Positions 21,626 to 57,198 of a stretch of DNA of 64,000 nt are shown here, one piece after another. Each line of letters starts with the position of its first letter. Position 1 is the stretch's first letter. The position numbers were made by a program, and so were the translations under genes. A model generated the notes under the pieces. It saw nothing but the letters and a program-made list of their open reading frames with translations. It did not search any database and was not told the origin of the DNA. This DNA comes from Candidatus Jettenia caeni (GTDB lineage Bacteria > Planctomycetota > Brocadiia > Brocadiales > Brocadiaceae): contig BAFH01000003.1 of assembly GCA_000296795.1 (NCBI GenBank), positions 1,178,401 through 1,242,400 on the forward strand, given 5' to 3'.

Positions 21626-24600
21626 TATTGGAGATTTTTTAGCCTTCTGAGTTCTTCCTGGAGCGGTTTTACAATCTTTCTTGCAAGCATTGCCGGGCTG
21701 TCGGTTTCCCGCGCGGTGATTTCGATTTTTGGGATGTTGATGGTGATGTTTCTACCCGGCACAGATACAGGGTTTTGGGGCTGTGCCTGGGGTAGAGACG
21801 CACGGCCGTGCGTCTCTACGTTCTGGATGCGGTTGGGCCGGATTGGCTCTGTACGGACAACGGTATCGGGTCTGTAGAGGTTTTCTACGCGATACTGCAC
21901 GCTCTGGCTCGTTTCGTTTACCATATTGTTTTTATGAACATTTTCAGTATTGATAGCCCTGGTTTGCGATATATTTTCTGTGTTTTTAACGATGTTTTTT
22001 GTATTCTCAAAGATGTGGTTTTGATAGATGTTCTGTCTGCTCACCTCGGCAGGAGGAGGTGCAGGATTTTGTATTTCTACCTGACTATTCCCAGGATTTC
22101 CGACATTATTTTCCCTATCCCTAAAGGTGTTCTGGACGATATTCTTTACCTCCTCGAAGGTATGATTCTGGTAGATATTGTACCTGGCAGGTACCACGGC
22201 CTCGCCTTTGTGCAGCTCTGCTATCCTATCATCATCTATATACCGTGATCCTACGAAATACGATGGCAAGGCGCTTGTCCCTGAAAACGGCTGAAAACCA
22301 TTTCCTCCCGGTGCAGCTCCGGTCTGTACTGTCTGTATGAGAATGGTCTTACGCGTGACATCAGGTATGGAATTCATGAGCGATTTCACATCGTTCAGGG
22401 CTGTTAGTGCCTGCGATACGTCGATTATCAACACTAGTGATCGCAGGATATTTTGCAGATTCTCAGCGTCGGTCTTTATCATGCTGAGCTGGTTGAGCAC
22501 CTGAGAGGCATCCGCGCTGAGCCTCATGGTCTGCATGGCAGCGCCGAGCGAGAGTATTTCGCTTCTTACGAGCGATGCTGTAGAGGCTATCTGCATCAGG
22601 GACGCATTCAAGGAAGAGACAATCTCTTGCGACTGTCTGAGCTTTGATGTACCGATGTCGAATTGCGGCTTTGAGAGTTGGAACGGCTCTAGTTTGAAGT
22701 CTGGTAATTGAAAATTTGAGAACATGGACTGCATGTCCTGTGTGACGCTGGATTTCATCTGCGATATTTGTTCGGACAAGGGCGTGAAATTGGCCACAAT
22801 ATTTGGCCTTTCATCGCCGATAGAACCTATCATTTCCCTGATATCCTGTACCTTCTCCGAAATAGGCTTGATTTCAGAGCCTTCCCCATAGAACCTTACC
22901 ACCAAGGGCGTCTCAATCTCCCGCTTAATCGCCTGTATTGCCCCCATTGCCTGTGTGGTATCGATGGTAAGTTTCAGAGACGTCATCCTATCGCCAAGGT
23001 CTATAATCTCTGCCTTGTAGGATCCCAGCACCGCTTTTGCCTCAGCAATAGCATCTCGCAGGGTGGCTGCCCACGTCTGTGTTTGCTCGATCTCCTGCTG
23101 TTTTGCGGCTATCATTTTTTCTTGCTCCGTCACGATTTCCGACTGTGCAAGTTTGACCTGATCCAAGGCAGTCCGTGATGCATTTTGCAGGCTGATGTAT
23201 TCTTTGCCGTCCTCTACCACGGCATTGGCCGCACTCGCAGCGGCTTGCTGGTATTTCGCAAGGGCATCGATACGCGCCTGGCCGTTCAGAAGTAGGGCAG
23301 ACTGGTATTGTCCCTCTAGCGATCTTTGTGTGTCATAATATTTTTGCACCTCGGACTTGTTTTGATTGAATATCTTATCCTTGAGAGATTTTTCCAGGTC
23401 GGCATACCCCTGCCTTTGCTGGGATATCTGCGTCTCAAGGGCTAAAAGCTCCTGCGTCTTCCGCTTCTGCTCATCGATAGCGCTGGTATGGAGCGCGGTA
23501 AGGGTGTCGTAGTATTGCTGCCAGGCATCCAGTCTCGTGGATATCTGTGTTTTCTCTGCCGTAAGGACCGCTATTGCCTGGTTTTTCATATCTTCGGGAG
23601 ATGCGCCGGTGGCTTTCATCTGCTCGAAGATCGCCCGCTGGGCATTGGCTTGCTTTTTGTAGACCTCATCAACCGTTTCAAGGTACCCAGTTAGTACGGT
23701 TTTCAGGTTTGCTATCGTATTTTTCTGTGCCTCTTCGTACTGCCTTACGGCGATACGGTTCTTTTCCCATACTCCTGAGAAGTCAAATCCCTCTTTATCC
23801 CCTGCACCCTGCATTATGCCCTGTATCTCTTCCATGGATTTTTTCATCTCGTCCAGGTCCCGTGCGGGTATTTTCAAGTTCAGGGCAAACTCCGTCCCGG
23901 CAAATTTCAGGACGTCAATGCCAACCGATTCCACAACCTTGGAGTATTCTTGTAGTAATTTCACATTCTTTTCAATCGCCTTCCCCTTTTCCGCCTCGGC
24001 TTGCGCTGCCCTATCCGTGGCGCTTACAGCGTTTGTCTGCGCGGCCATCAATTCTTCCGAGCTTGCCGTTATGGCAGACATATTTTCCCAGGCTTGCTTG
24101 CCAAGGTCTTTCGTTGCCTCCCATGTCGTCATCATGGCCATTTTGAGTTCGTCGTATGCGCCGCTCGTGATGTGTACTGCATCGGTGACCCAGGTGAGCG
24201 CCATACCTATCCCCATAAACCCTGTCCCCACAAGCGCAATTGCACTGGCAAGTCCCTGGAAGAGTCCGTACAAGGCCAAGCCGCCCTTTACGATGAACGC
24301 CCCTACTTCTAGTCTGAGGTTGGCTACCGATGCGGTGAGTTGCTCCATCCGCTCTTTTGCCGTGAGCACGGAAAGATCATGCCGCTCCAGAGATTCCCTT
24401 CCCGCCTCAATCGTTGCATTGAGGACTGCCATTTTTTGTTCTTGTGAGGTTAGCTCGCTTGCAGATTTTCCCAGGCTCTGCGCCATCTTCCCATTTGCTT
24501 CTTCAAGCTTAATCACAATTCCCAGATTGTCCAGGAATAGAGGGCTTGCCCTGCCTATCCCAAGGGCAATACTATCAAACGCATCCTTAGCCGTTATCCC

Positions 24601-43865: not shown

Positions 43866-44501
43866 TTAGTTTAACCGATTCTTGAAATGTTCTGCATATC
43901 CCTGTAACTTTGGCAGATCCTTTGGCGGCATAAGCAACCCGCATGATTCCATCCTGCGGACATGTTTCCTCACCGTAGATTTTTCCAGATGGACAAGCAG
44001 GGCAATTTCCCTGTTGTTCAGCCCAATATCCTTATACCTGAGTATCTTCCTCCAGAGGGGCGACCTATCAAGCAATTCGCTCCGCATGTTATTGAACATC
44101 CACTCCTGTCTGTCCTGTTTCAGGTTTGGCTTCACCGTGATCCTGCCTGCCTTGATCTCTTCCATGAGAAACGAGTATGCGCAAAATCCTTCCACCACTG
44201 CTATGGCATGCTCTATCGCCTCATCCGTGCTCAGGATTGTGGAAAACATATAGGCACCTCTTTTGGTGTAGGCATAAGGCGAATGACCACCTTTCCAGTC
44301 GATATCACAAATTGTGATATCATCTTTAGTGAGTTGAAAGTAATCTACACCTTCCATAAACTTTTTAGGATTCCTTACCCGTGCCTGATTTAACTCCATC
44401 GTCTCAACCCCATAAACCCTCGCCAGATCTCTATCGAGCATGCAGGGCGGTTTCCCTGGCAATTCAATTACCCTGTCTTCAATCCTCATTACCTGTTCCA
44501 T
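43866..44501 (-). CDS. ORF6N-domain DNA-binding protein
   Basis: Residues about 10-100 match the ORF6N domain of phage antirepressor-type proteins (MLDRDLARVYGVETMELNQA, then NPKKFMEGVDYFQL and KRGAYMFSTILST). The C-terminal part has a winged helix-like segment (NNREIALLVHLEKSTVRKHV). ATG 44501 is preferred because GGAGGG then has normal spacing. It may control the lytic switch. Such genes are common in phages but not typical of Mu itself. Confidence 0.76.
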   Translation of the reverse strand: MEQVMRIEDRVIELPGKPPCMLDRDLARVYGVETMELNQARVRNPKKFMEGVDYFQLTKDDITICDIDWKGGHSPYAYTKRGAYMFSTILSTDEAIEHAIAVVEGFCAYSFLMEEIKAGRITVKPNLKQDRQEWMFNNMRSELLDRSPLWRKILRYKDIGLNNREIALLVHLEKSTVRKHVRRMESCGLLMPPKDLPKLQGYAEHFKNRLN

Positions 44502-44555
44502 AATCATTCATCCCTCCAATAAAAAAGTTATAAAAATTTACTCAAACCCCCGGGT

Positions 44556-48928: not shown

Positions 48929-50566
48929 TTATCCTGCTGCCGTTGCCTTCTTGCAGCTTGCCTTGTGTAGCTCAAGCGCAAGGTCTGTCACATACTGCTT
49001 CCTGAGTCCATTCTCTTGTATGAGTCCCTCGATTGCCTCCCTCTGTGATGGCTCGATGTATACCCCAACGATTTCACAGAATTCCCGCATCGCCTCCTGA
49101 AGAGAGGGGTGCGTGTCGATATCGAACACATCGAACACCTCCCGCGTCTCTTTTGTCTGAGCGGGCAGGGGAACGACCTTTGTCTCTTCCCTCCTTTCGT
49201 AAATGCCCCGGAATTCACCGGGCTTCATCTGCTTTTTTAACTCCTGTGCCTCTTCCCTGATCTTTACGCCTTCAAGCTTCTTGTCAGCCCGGATGGCATC
49301 CAGGGCGGGCATTTCAAACGGGGTAGCCTCGTACCGTTGATGTGTTATAACGTCTTCCACCACGATTGATTTTTCCAGCAGACCACGGTATACCCACACC
49401 CAGGCATCCAGCAGCCCCTTCACAAAATACCGCTCGTTCTCAAGCCGCATGATGCCATCTTTGCCCACCAGCCTTTTGAGCCGCGTGAATGCGCGGCCGA
49501 AGGCGCTTTCATCGATGTCGATTACCCCGCCGTGCTGCATCACGGCCATCCATGCCTGTGTGCGGGTGCACATGAGGTTTGGGTGCTTTTTGTTATTCAC
49601 CTCTACCGTGTAATTCATAAGCCGGTCTTTCAATTCCGAAAGCCGGTATTCCCGCTTCTCCCAGTGCGGGTCCATGAGGAACTCGGCTGCCTCGAAGCCG
49701 CTCCAGAGGTGACGCCATCGGATCTCTATCTTTCCCGTGTCAGACGGGCTTTCCGGCTCATGGGTCTTGATCTCCACGCCAAGCTGCCGCTCGAAAAAGT
49801 TCCGGGTGGCTTCGGCCTTTGCCAGGGGGCCGTTATCCATGTAGACCCTGCCGGGCAGGCCGCGGAAGACGATCCGCTCGTCCTGCTTGCGCGCAAAGGC
49901 CCATTTGCAGAATTTCACGGCGTCCACGGACGATTCGCCGGGCGCCACAAACGGCATGGCAAGCCAGTACCGGGAGTGATCATCAACCATACCGTGGTAC
50001 CAGACCCGCAGGTTTTCGAAGCGGTCCTTGTTCTTGTACGCCTTCGATGCCCGCACACGGAGGACAGGCTCGCCGTTATCGATGCCGACCACGTACAGAT
50101 ACTCACTGCCCGACACATCGTATTGCACCTGCTCCATAGGCCGTGCGGCCTCGAACCTGAGCACCCGGCCCTCCGTGTCCAGGAATCCCTTTTCCCTGAG
50201 CACGCGGGCAAAGGTGCTCACGGAGATATCTTTTGCGCTTTCGGGCAGCATGCTGTTCTCTATAGCCTTCCGTATTGCAATCTCCAGCGATGGCCGCCTG
50301 CCCGCGCGGGCGGGGATGAAGGCGTAGAGCCGGGCGATCTGCTTTGCCATGTCATGGAGGCCCGGTATTTTGGACTGCCCCTTCGTGACCTTCGGCCGCT
50401 TTTGGAGCAACTGGAAGCCCATCGCCTTGAATTTGCGATGCAGGGTGCCGTAGGAGATGCCGAGGGCGCTGGCGTGTTTCCGGACGATGTAGCTTTTAGA
50501 ACCATTCACCGCCATGCGCCATTCCTGGAAGGCCACGGAGAGTACTGCTATGTCGATCTCTTTCAT
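48929..50566 (-). CDS. Mu-type DDE transposase (MuA family)
   Basis: The 545-residue transposase has an N-terminal helix-turn-helix (HASALGISYGTLHRKFKAMG), an integrase core and a C-terminal part that should contact the ATPase. Catalytic candidates are D150 in VQYDVSG, D244 in VYMDNGP and E281 in GKIEIRWR, a D-D-36-E spacing. It carries out replicative transposition of the phage. AAAGGA precedes the ATG. The C-terminal tail (about 450-545) is less conserved. Confidence 0.92.
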   Translation of the reverse strand: MKEIDIAVLSVAFQEWRMAVNGSKSYIVRKHASALGISYGTLHRKFKAMGFQLLQKRPKVTKGQSKIPGLHDMAKQIARLYAFIPARAGRRPSLEIAIRKAIENSMLPESAKDISVSTFARVLREKGFLDTEGRVLRFEAARPMEQVQYDVSGSEYLYVVGIDNGEPVLRVRASKAYKNKDRFENLRVWYHGMVDDHSRYWLAMPFVAPGESSVDAVKFCKWAFARKQDERIVFRGLPGRVYMDNGPLAKAEATRNFFERQLGVEIKTHEPESPSDTGKIEIRWRHLWSGFEAAEFLMDPHWEKREYRLSELKDRLMNYTVEVNNKKHPNLMCTRTQAWMAVMQHGGVIDIDESAFGRAFTRLKRLVGKDGIMRLENERYFVKGLLDAWVWVYRGLLEKSIVVEDVITHQRYEATPFEMPALDAIRADKKLEGVKIREEAQELKKQMKPGEFRGIYERREETKVVPLPAQTKETREVFDVFDIDTHPSLQEAMREFCEIVGVYIEPSQREAIEGLIQENGLRKQYVTDLALELHKASCKKATAAG

Positions 50567-50596: not shown

Positions 50597-51445
50597 TTAC
50601 ATCCGACCAGGTAGTTTTGCCCCGATTGCATTCTCAAGCACGTTAATGCAATGGTTAAAGCAGTTCAAGACCGTCTCAAGCCGCTTCATGTAGAGGGCTT
50701 TTACGGGGCCTTCGTCCTCTGCCCCCCCAAATGTCTCGTCAAAGTGAAGCTTGCTGGCTATGGTAACGATCTCATCCGTATAGCGCTCGACAGCCATAAT
50801 AAACTCATTAAACCCCTCCGGGAGTTTCGGGTCTGCGAGTTTTGCCTTGAGGAATTCTAGCTCATTCTTGTACGCCTGGAGTTCCTTACTATGTTCCTTA
50901 TTGAGGCCTTCGACTTTTTTTTCTGAGGCCCTCTCTTTCTTTTCTGACAAATCCCTTGCCTCTTTGAGAAGCGCGACTGCTGCCTTTATCTCGTCGATAT
51001 GTTCTTCATCGATGGGAATTTGTTTATCACCAAAAGGAATTACATTCTTCTCCCGTACGGCCTTCTTTGTCTCCTCCTCCAGGGTACTCACGAGCATCTT
51101 AATATCCCGCCACTTGAGTCCTGCGGCAGCCACAACCCTTACCGCATGTGCCCCAAGCTCCTGACACGCCTTAATCATCCGATCAACCGTATCGACACTC
51201 TTGCCGAGTTCTTCCTCACAGTATTCCTCCCAGCTTTCATACCCAAGCTCGAGGTATTGCTTACTCGACTTAATGGTACTCAAGCTATGTATCCAAGCCG
51301 CATCGATGAGCCGTGCCGCAAAATTTAACCCTGCGATAAAACCGCCCTGCCGTCCTTTTCTTCCCATATTCCCCCCCCTGTTCTTAGAACCCATACTCCG
51401 CACCGGTGCGGAGTATGCTTTTATAAGTTGTTGATTATCAATCAC
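50597..51445 (-). CDS. Early phage protein with helical, coiled-coil structure
   Basis: The protein is probably started at ATG 51367 (MGRKGRQGGFIAGLNFAARL; AGGGGGGGG upstream) rather than 51445, because a 26-bp palindrome lies in the first codons of the longer form. It has a segment like ELGYESWEEYCEEELGKSVD and VDRMIKACQELG, similar to phage DUF3102-like proteins, then a long charged coiled coil. It precedes the transposase gene. Function unknown; possibly DNA binding. Confidence 0.6.
   Translation of the reverse strand: MIDNQQLIKAYSAPVRSMGSKNRGGNMGRKGRQGGFIAGLNFAARLIDAAWIHSLSTIKSSKQYLELGYESWEEYCEEELGKSVDTVDRMIKACQELGAHAVRVVAAAGLKWRDIKMLVSTLEEETKKAVREKNVIPFGDKQIPIDEEHIDEIKAAVALLKEARDLSEKKERASEKKVEGLNKEHSKELQAYKNELEFLKAKLADPKLPEGFNEFIMAVERYTDEIVTIASKLHFDETFGGAEDEGPVKALYMKRLETVLNCFNHCINVLENAIGAKLPGRM
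51392..51417. repeat. Perfect 26-bp palindrome CATACTCCGCACC
   Basis: Perfect 13+13 palindrome upstream of the likely ATG 51367. It shares ACTCCGCA/TGCGGAGT with the palindrome 39 bp away at 51456-51477. Operator or RNA hairpin are both possible. Confidence 0.72.
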
Positions 51446-54972: not shown

Positions 54973-55281
54973 CTAATTCCGCTCAGCCTCCATACTTTTT
55001 ATGGTGCCTTCTAAATCGGAAATATATGCTGCATAGCTGCCGATATACTCAATGGCAATATCCATTAGCTCTGTTAACAAGGAGAAATACTCTGTTGGAT
55101 TGTCCTCTTTCCCTTCCAGAAGGGCGTCTATTTTTACCGGATCTGCCAGATCACTGGGTGAATTATCCCGAACAACATCCTCCCAGAAATCTTCACCTAC
55201 GATCTTTTTCAACCGATAGTAAAGATCCTGGAGGCACTCTACCGTGAACTGCTTCTCATCTTCATTCAGAAACTTATACAT
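54973..55281 (-). CDS. Hypothetical phage protein, 102 residues
   Basis: The acidic helical protein (MYKFLNEDEKQFTVECLQDL...) ends SDLEGTIKSMEAERN. GGAAGGTGG precedes the ATG, which overlaps the stop region of the upstream gene by 8 nt. Function unknown. Confidence 0.55.
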   Translation of the reverse strand: MYKFLNEDEKQFTVECLQDLYYRLKKIVGEDFWEDVVRDNSPSDLADPVKIDALLEGKEDNPTEYFSLLTELMDIAIEYIGSYAAYISDLEGTIKSMEAERN

Positions 55282-56308
55282 ATTCCACCTTCCGTTTCCA
55301 TTGGTTAATCACCGATTCCGATACCTTAAGACTCAACTCCTTCTTGATGACCTTTGCCGTCAGTTTCTTAAACCGGTTCCCATGCTTTTTAACCTCTTCC
55401 CGGTGAGCCAGGCAAAAGGCAATCACCTTTTCTTCCTCCCCCGGATACTTCGTCTTCCCCTTATCAGAACGTGGCCTGCGCGGCTGGCCGGTCAACTTCG
55501 TGGCTTCGGGTGGTATACAACTGGACTTCTCTGCCACCTCCACCATGCGGTAAAACTTGCCTTTGCTCCATCCAAGCTCCCGGCAAGCCTGTTGTTGAAA
55601 CTTTCCACGCCCCTTGTATTCTTTCAGGGCAAGAAAGTCATACACCTGATGGGGGATACCGGCATCCTTCGGCACGTGGACCGGCCGGAGCTGCCCGCGG
55701 CGGATCATGCCAAGCATGATCATCACCCACTTTTGGAACTCAATTACACGCTCCCGCGTCTGCGGGTCCTTAATCCTGGAAGTATGCAGCTTGAAGGTAA
55801 GGCCGTCTACCATCTCCTGGGCCATGATGATCGTTTCCTGGATACGGCCCAGTGCATCGGGGATGGGTTCAACGCGGTAAAAGGATTTGAATGTATCCTT
55901 GGAAAGATTTATCATACGGCGAATATTATTTTCTGCTACCCCTATTGCCGTACAATAGTCAGGAAGTGGTATAGCTTGTGTCTCCATTACTACTTTTCTA
56001 CTCCAAGATTGGGTATCATTATGATACCCAATCTCCTGAGGGGATGGGGTCGTATTACACGATCCAGTCTCTTGATTATTACCCCGAGATTGGGAGTCAT
56101 TATGGCCCCTAATATCCATCTCGGATGGGGTATCATTATGATACCCCATCTCTGGATTTTTATCCTGAGATGAGGTGTCATCATGACACCTCATCTCTAT
56201 CTCAAACGTCATAGGAAAAAACCGAACCGGTTTACCCAAAAAATGCGTTACAATCGGAAAAATCCTTACTTCTTGTACGGCCGGAACTGCTTGAACGGCT
56301 TGAACCAC
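55274..56308 (-). CDS. First gene of the early operon; DNA-binding protein with palindrome-encoded N-terminal repeats
   Basis: GTG 56308 follows GGAGGGG and opens a 344-residue frame. Residues about 37-101 are five degenerate repeats (EMRCHDDTSS..., EMGYHNDTPS, DIRGHNDSQS..., ETGSCNTTPS, EIGYHNDTQS), each encoded by one palindrome. The remaining 237 residues, from a possible internal ATG 55987 (METQAIPLPDYCTAIGV), include an antirepressor-like N-terminal domain, LGWSKGKFYRMVEVAEKS and a C-terminal helix-turn-helix-like end. A regulatory or replication role is likely; if the internal ATG is used, the repeats are leader DNA instead. Confidence 0.55.
   Translation of the reverse strand: MVQAVQAVPAVQEVRIFPIVTHFLGKPVRFFPMTFEIEMRCHDDTSSQDKNPEMGYHNDTPSEMDIRGHNDSQSRGNNQETGSCNTTPSPQEIGYHNDTQSWSRKVVMETQAIPLPDYCTAIGVAENNIRRMINLSKDTFKSFYRVEPIPDALGRIQETIIMAQEMVDGLTFKLHTSRIKDPQTRERVIEFQKWVMIMLGMIRRGQLRPVHVPKDAGIPHQVYDFLALKEYKGRGKFQQQACRELGWSKGKFYRMVEVAEKSSCIPPEATKLTGQPRRPRSDKGKTKYPGEEEKVIAFCLAHREEVKKHGNRFKKLTAKVIKKELSLKVSESVINQWKRKVEYV
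56006..56197. repeat. Array of five related palindromes
   Basis: Centres lie at 56020, 56056, 56101, 56137 and 56182, alternating 36 and 45 bp. Units at 56006-56034 (arm AGATTGGGTATCAT), 56124-56150 (GATGGGGTATCAT) and 56167-56197 (GAGATGAGGTGTCAT) are perfect palindromes around one central base; the other two are degenerate. Arms differ between units but pair within each. Confidence 0.82.
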
Positions 56309-56331: not shown

Positions 56332-56547
56332 TTACTTTGCGGCCTTATATACGTTCTCCGGCCAGAGGTCCTCTACCCTCATGCCGATCGCATCGGCAAT
56401 AGCTTTACGGAGTCGCTTCGATTTTGTTTTACCCGTAATGACCTGGTATACAGCCACACGGCTAACACCCATCCGGCGGCCTATCTCGGCCCCGGATATG
56501 TTTCTCTTAATGAACTCTATTCTTATTTTTTGTTTTGTGGTTATCAT
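56332..56547 (-). CDS. Ner-like DNA-binding regulator
   Basis: From ATG 56547 the 71-residue protein reads MITTKQKIRIEFIKRNISGA and has a helix-turn-helix (AEIGRRMGVSRVAVYQVITG) ending with AIADAIGMRVEDLWPE, like Ner/Nlp-type proteins. In Mu, Ner represses the early and repressor promoters after induction. An upstream GTG at 56565 lies inside the operator palindrome and is less likely. It is divergent from the repressor. Confidence 0.8.
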   Translation of the reverse strand: MITTKQKIRIEFIKRNISGAEIGRRMGVSRVAVYQVITGKTKSKRLRKAIADAIGMRVEDLWPENVYKAAK

Positions 56548-56558
56548 GTGAAGAATTA

Positions 56559-56578
56559 TACGCACTCATATGTGCGTA
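56559..56578. promoter_or_regulatory. Operator candidate TACGCAC ... GTGCGTA
   Basis: TACGCAC (56559-56565) and GTGCGTA (56572-56578) are inverted with a 6-bp spacer between the divergent repressor and Ner-like genes. A third half site, GCGTGCGT (56602-56609), adjoins the repressor ATG. Confidence 0.6.
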
Positions 56579-56610
56579 GTCAAATAAAAATATGCATATA
56601 AGCGTGCGTT

Positions 56611-57198
56611 ATGGACAAAAAATATCCCTATCTTGATGTAGGGAAAAGACTTGAAAAATTAAGAAAAAATTTAACTCAGGGAGAATTTGCTAAGAAAATT
56701 GGGATTTCCCTTAGAACTTATCAATATTACGAATCTGGTGAGAGGTTACCGCCCGACCCAGTACTTGAGCGGATTGCGGAGGAATGTAACACCACAAAAG
56801 ATGAGATACTTGGCCGAGGTTTTGCATCCCTGGAAAGGTTGTTTGCCCAGGAGAAGGCCAAAATTGCGGCTGAAAAGGCAGAGCTCGAAGGGTTAGAGAA
56901 AAAGTTGAGAGATAAACTCCTGGAGTGGGGTATCCCGGTCCCGGAAAATACCCTTGCATTCCTTGAAGTGGTAACGTTTTACAACAAACACGGCATAAAC
57001 ATCGTAGAGTTAATAAAAGGCGCTAAAGAGCCTATTCACACCGGAGAAGAACAGGAGCTTATCGATATGCTGGTAGCCATCTTACGAGGAGAAAACGAGG
57101 ACAATAAAAAGGCCATCATCGAAAATGTCAAGGCATTTTATAAAACCCGTAACGTTAATATTCCCAATGAAATAAAAAAAGCGAACCATGCCGGATAA
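56611..57198 (+). CDS. Phage repressor, XRE/cI-type without S24 domain
   Basis: Residues about 8-65 form an XRE helix-turn-helix (LTQGEFAKKIGISLRTYQYY). A coiled coil follows (QEKAKIAAEKAELEGLEKKL), then a helical C-terminal domain (about 105-185). No LexA-type autocleavage peptidase is seen, so induction probably does not use RecA. It is divergent from the Ner-like gene with an operator between them, like Mu c. The start ATG at 56611 lies next to the GCGTGCGT half site. Confidence 0.82.
   Translation: MDKKYPYLDVGKRLEKLRKNLTQGEFAKKIGISLRTYQYYESGERLPPDPVLERIAEECNTTKDEILGRGFASLERLFAQEKAKIAAEKAELEGLEKKLRDKLLEWGIPVPENTLAFLEVVTFYNKHGINIVELIKGAKEPIHTGEEQELIDMLVAILRGENEDNKKAIIENVKAFYKTRNVNIPNEIKKANHAG

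Follow-up and report, generated by a model that had tools for sequence, protein, structure and literature searches.

A palindrome array inside an antirepressor-like gene of a Mu-like prophage: candidate operators encoded together with their putative reader

Intragenic operators, and arrays of sites placed in the gene of their own reader, are already known in principle: the replication origin of phage lambda lies inside gene O, and its iterons are read by the protein of that same gene. The palindrome array described here would share with lambda ori the tandem dyad-symmetric sites inside the reader's own gene, but lambda ori is the origin of a theta-replicating phage, whereas our array belongs to a Mu-like phage and to an antirepressor-like protein. 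In phage Mu, the internal activating sequence overlaps the repressor operators upstream of ner. Like our array, it comprises several sites close to an early promoter in a Mu-like phage; our array, however, is located inside a downstream gene and is unrelated in sequence. Palindromes in frame inside genes are also seen with the Rickettsia palindromic elements, but those are 100–150 bp long and dispersed over many genes, whereas our units are of 27 bp and are confined to one gene. Genes of the P22_AR_N family, such as P22 ant, have three features in common with the gene studied here: a winged-helix-type domain, a covarying palindrome (26–27 bp) within the gene, and an early or immunity regulatory context. 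They differ in that a single palindrome precedes the wing, in place of five in another loop, and our gene product scores below the Pfam cut-off of the family. ORF6N genes (PF10543) likewise have an in-gene palindrome just before the wing with a core that matches the recognition helix, but the helix and the core are different and the unit is single. In a literature search whose scope excluded most subscription journals and preprints, we found no in-gene operator described for Ant, Bro-N or ORF6N genes, and no operator in antirepressor genes matched to the helix and wing of its reader.

The window, by which we mean the whole stretch of 64,000 nucleotides that was analysed, is part of a Brocadiaceae (anammox) chromosome and carries a prophage with genes for a transposase, a MuB-like ATPase, Gam, terminase and portal; the prophage is classed as Mu-like because its transposase is of the Mu type (Table 1). 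The gene that holds the array, P0001, starts with GTG at 56308, and a Shine-Dalgarno-like AAAGGAGGGG lies ahead of the start. The earlier note had taken it for the first early gene, but it is the second, following a Ner-like HTH gene. An IMG/VR contig (IMGVR_UViG_2531839184_000003, L019) encodes a transposase 100% identical to that of the window and ends near the P0001 stop, and it is therefore probably the same prophage in another assembly. Just inside the start of the gene at 50597–51445 (−), upstream of the transposase, there is a perfect even palindrome of 26 bp (51392–51417, CATACTCCGCACCGGTGCGGAGTATG), which is conserved in that contig.

Table 1 Features of the prophage region, in coordinates of the window
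Feature	Position	Strand	Description
ORF6N (PF10543) gene	43866..44507	−	second antirepressor-type gene, same prophage as P0001; Pfam E 5e-18
ORF6N in-gene palindrome	44298..44324		11/13 paired; encodes the pre-wing strand
Mu-type transposase	48929..50566	−	phrog_310/2610
P0001, array host gene	55274..56308	−	344 aa; predicted antirepressor-N-like winged-helix (~residues 26–210) and C-terminal HTH-like regions
U1 palindrome	56006..56034		perfect, 14-bp arms; inner core GTATC
U2 palindrome	56043..56069		decayed, 9/13; TCGT core; equivalent in L004 has 12 bp deleted
U3 palindrome	56088..56114		decayed, 9/13
U4 palindrome	56124..56150		perfect; inner core GTATC
U5 palindrome	56167..56197		perfect, 15-bp arms; inner core GTGTC
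Ner-like HTH regulator	56332..56565	−	first early gene; phrog_769
Repressor/Ner intergenic region	56566..56610		CGCAC...GTGCG dyads, unlike the array in sequence; found by eye
Prophage repressor	56611..57198	+	HTH_3

Five odd-centred palindromes of 27–31 bp occupy 56006–56197, all in one frame. Their centres (56020, 56056, 56101, 56137 and 56182) are spaced by 36, 45, 36 and 45 bp, and the array amounts to about 2.5 repeats of an 81-bp module of two units. Over the 27-bp core, pairing is complete (13/13) in U1, U4 and U5 and has decayed to 9/13 in each of U2 and U3, and codon position 1 lies under every one of the five centres. These measurements agree with the earlier note, which had described five palindromes, three of them perfect, at these centre distances and in frame with spacings in multiples of nine. 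Its further claim of five consensus peptides held for the frame but not for every unit, as the peptide that is read fourth (ETGSCNTTPS, from U2) departs from the consensus. The spacings, multiples of three and nine, correspond to 3.4 and 4.3 helical turns at 10.5 bp per turn; helical phasing of the array was rejected on these values, the frame being kept and the helical face not. A first-order Markov null predicts 0.000 perfect palindromes with 13-bp arms per 64-kb window. When the array gene was recoded 20,000 times with synonymous codons, the summed palindrome score was 38.0 ± 3.4 (maximum 51) as compared with 57 for the actual gene, a value reached by 0/20,000 recodings. The symmetry of the array is selected beyond the peptide that it encodes.

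Close relatives of P0001 were absent from IMG/VR, phages and plasmids, and a single ortholog was present in 392 genomes of the phylum, that of Candidatus Brocadia sapporoensis (L004/L016; 69% protein identity). In this ortholog two units are intact, each with 12/13 pairs, and a third survives as a scar: as aligned by eye, its centre has lost 12 bp in frame relative to the U2-type unit of the window. Paired changes between the two orthologs (G-C to C-G; A-T to G-C twice) preserve the symmetry while altering the peptide from HDDT to HYET and from HNDT to RYDT. In the seven units of the two orthologs that retain both arms, 12 double-change cells were counted versus 4.3 after shuffling (0/500 shuffles as high), and the covariation signal was abolished by sliding the partners. 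The dyad symmetry of the array is thus maintained by paired changes at the DNA level, as expected for an intragenic operator array. That the arms have changed together, as the earlier note proposed, is borne out; in this one relative the number of units also varies, and pairing is better conserved than the peptide, whereas a mere coding repeat had been expected to keep the peptide and lose the pairing.

The two phages have wholly different repressor-ner operators, CGCAC..GTGCG in the window and ACATCA..TGATGT in L004, whereas the array consensus, GATKRGG..TCAT, is common to both and is unlike the operator consensus in either of them. The prophage repressor and Ner are therefore unlikely to be the readers of the array. 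The same comparison bears on the idea that the array is a transposition enhancer bound by the transposase, like the internal activating sequence of Mu. The prophage is indeed Mu-like, and the array is at the start of the early region, with some 400 bp separating it from the repressor operators; yet its consensus differs from theirs, and it sits inside the gene after ner rather than between the repressor and ner. Moreover, a related Mu-like phage (L020), with a transposase 55% identical, has neither the gene nor the array, and P22, which is not a transposing phage, has a palindrome of the same kind in its P22_AR_N gene. An enhancer function is very improbable on these grounds.

The difference in unit number between the orthologs (five versus two and a scar) is also what one might see if a short palindromic element were spreading within genes as the Rickettsia elements do. 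The in-frame multiples of nine fit such an element as well, and so do intergenic copies with shared outer arms in the Pseudomonas phage UFJF_PfDIW6. However, no copy of the array exists outside P0001 in its own genome or in 32 genomes of the family, where a search with the array unit returned only the ortholog and two degenerate matches with three mismatches, and the palindrome of the P22_AR_N genes falls on conserved residues of the domain and is not an insertion. The array palindrome pattern likewise gave no match in IMG/VR. We consider a spreading element highly improbable.

P0001 appears to be a divergent relative of the P22_AR_N (P22 Ant-type) proteins; what we claim is resemblance and not membership. 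Its match to the Pfam profile of the family (PF10547; 15.4 bits, E 0.021) stays below the gathering cut-off of 30.7. In profile comparisons, residues 114–200 align, with E 2e-4 and a probability of 46%, to a Brocadiaceae AR_N family that itself exceeds the Pfam cut-off, and with the phage AR_N set the FQKW region alone aligns. The array is inserted at about residues 40–105 of the protein. The predicted model of P0001 is poor (pLDDT 43); the alignment and this low-confidence model would place the array between a strand at 34–41 and another at 103–109, that is, in the turn of the β1-β2 hairpin. At the place that is canonical for P22_AR_N genes, the segment before the wing, P0001 has no palindrome, and the array in the β1-β2 turn is found instead.

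Most P22_AR_N genes of the Brocadiaceae have a 27-bp palindrome at one and the same codon position, with sequences that differ from gene to gene, and 11–12 of the 13 pairs are formed in the intact genes. The palindrome in P22 ant is CAACTATGTCGATATCGACATGGTTG; it is one of only two palindromes with at least 11/13 pairs in the 41.7-kb P22 genome, the other being terminator-like. IMG/VR supplied a sample of 31 non-redundant P22_AR_N genes. Their palindrome has its centre at about codon 57–63 and is the best of the gene for most of the 31, and the set contains 85 double-change cells as against 30 after shuffling. Part of the symmetry comes from amino-acid constraint, which gives a null of ~8/13, and codon choice lifts it above the null in many genes. 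Among the mismatches outside the central pairs, A-C is at least as common as G-U, and because there is no wobble bias of the kind expected for mRNA, the selection appears to act on DNA.

This result weighs on the possibility that the palindromes work as RNA, as a series of hairpins in the mRNA (or an antisense RNA) that governs how the early transcript is translated or degraded. A perfect unit could fold into a stem of ~12 bp with a 3-nt loop, and by annotation P22 ant is regulated by the sar antisense RNA. However, besides the mismatches of the P22_AR_N genes, which do not favour G-U in the mRNA, wobble in the units of the array is commoner on the non-coding strand, and RNA hairpins leave the correspondence with helix residues described below unexplained. 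We regard this explanation as rather improbable.

For the AR_N domain the predicted model has better support than the P0001 model, with a pLDDT of 70–91 over most of the N-terminal domain; it has a helix (41–50) followed by strands at 58–63 and 69–76. The solved folds nearest to the model are Bro-N-like Orf22, Dachshund/Ski, Mbp1, DNA-bound PCG2 and DdrC, with modest Z scores of 6–8; these neighbours are mostly DNA-binding proteins of the winged-helix type. Foldseek alone gave weak matches, and the AR_N profile had no match among the sequences of solved structures.

The ORF6N gene in the same prophage provides a second family. A palindrome of at least 10/13 was found in 11/11 wing windows of this gene and its homologs, as compared with 10% of control windows; in one of the eleven genes (L210) the best palindrome is elsewhere in the scanned window. 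Helix residues NQA occur with TCACAA and NEQ with TCGCAA in the core.

In the P22_AR_N genes, the bases of the palindrome correspond to residues of the protein. When residue 46 is R the last inner base is C, once T (13/13), and when it is not R the base is G (14/14; Fisher 5e-8). Residue 42 goes with the inner trinucleotide: K with GGT, Q with CAC (one AAC), and A, G or P with TGT (one TTC). The outer bases go with a wing residue encoded downstream of the palindrome, Y with CAGT and R with CAAC; the lone exception for the wing, L096, proved to be a parsing artefact, and CAAC does follow there. The Brocadiaceae genes repeat the correspondence (K with TGGTC, E with TTGTC twice, Y with CAGT, R with CAAC), which is seen both in unrelated phages and in Brocadiaceae. 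The rows of this comparison were partly gathered by hand. Since helix and palindrome are ~50 bp apart and inherited together, linkage may inflate the correlations; on the other hand, residues 42 and 46 combine in a roughly 3×2 factorial, which argues against simple linkage.

The matching residues of the recognition helix and the wing are encoded outside the palindrome, and this matters for a purely mutational account, in which template-switch (quasipalindrome) correction, together with gene conversion among the units, makes the arms change together, and no binding function exists. The units within one gene are alike, and homogenisation of arms in coding DNA has been described (PMC8604942). Such a process predicts neither a match between the bases of the palindrome and residues encoded elsewhere nor the constancy of the palindrome's codon position in P22_AR_N and ORF6N genes. 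As the whole explanation it is unlikely; arm homogenisation could contribute to the symmetry without explaining the residue-base correspondence.

For P0001 itself, position 127 is the counterpart of residue 42 in the alignment. The window has N there, with inner cores GTATC twice and GTGTC, and L004 has E, with GTGTC and ACTC. E also accompanies TTGTC in two further genes of the Brocadiaceae; that this residue tracks the inner core of the array is suggestive only.

Near some P22_AR_N genes (L043, L044 and L033) there are intergenic palindromes with inner cores that mismatch the resident helix, so that not every such palindrome is cognate and other readers or roles exist. A cluster of about four palindromes occupies the intergenic DNA upstream of the P22_AR_N gene of phage WC36-2 (L044:717–895); two fit the class of the resident helix (TGGTC) and the others do not. 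In another planctomycete (L033:1260–1425), a diversified palindrome array with spacings of 36/51/51 stands just upstream of a P22_AR_N gene adjacent to an hsdR-like gene, and a similar palindrome (L033, 93–118) precedes a nearby toxin-antitoxin-like pair. In UFJF_PfDIW6 (L127, OM418631; palindromes at 21904, 21991 and 23457), two intergenic palindromes have the outer arms of the palindrome in the antirepressor gene and different inner cores.

Among the four roles that the earlier note offered for the array, that of operators is the best supported, though not as operators of the prophage repressor or Ner; RNA hairpins, a transposition enhancer and a spreading palindrome are all disfavoured by the evidence above. 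With moderate confidence, we interpret the array as DNA operators in a coding sequence. Their reader would be a dimeric winged-helix protein from the P22_AR_N / KilA-N superfamily, P0001 being the likeliest candidate. The binding of P0001 to its own array is what we infer from the sequences, and its effect would probably be autoregulation. Related antirepressor genes hold a single site of this kind within the coding sequence, and its bases are matched by the recognition helix and the wing. In the Mu-like prophage, this site may have multiplied by duplication of the 81-bp two-unit module within the β1-β2 turn of P0001, where extra codons would be tolerated; duplication in such a turn would account for an array that keeps the frame, in multiples of nine, and not the helical phase. 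Occupancy of the array might then block transcription through P0001 and the early operon, as a roadblock or autoregulatory device, and by doing so P0001 would limit its own expression.

We give about even chances to a more general proposal, that antirepressors of the KilA-N superfamily (P22_AR_N and ORF6N) have reader and target co-encoded, the DNA of the pre-wing strand serving as the protein's own operator, so that helix, site and wing recombine as one self-consistent block; the array of the window would be an amplified and displaced version. If this is true, many phage antirepressors, the textbook P22 Ant included, are sequence-specific DNA binders with an operator hidden in their own coding sequence, which adds a layer of control to ant genes and makes the residue-to-base correspondence directly testable. 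It would also account for the ability of phages to switch specificity while retaining self-recognition, and the sites of many uncharacterised ORF6N and AR_N proteins would become predictable from sequence.

Finally, the prophage region also contains REP-like palindromes of three families (TAGGGACACGGCGCGCCGTGTCCCTA, TAGGGGCAGGTTTGAAACCTGCCCCTA and TAGAGACGCACGGCCGTGCGTCTCTA), at 21806, 25896, 27302, 27532, 33346, 43400, 43835, 45136 and 45479, and palindromes similar to these families are present in L015 and L016.
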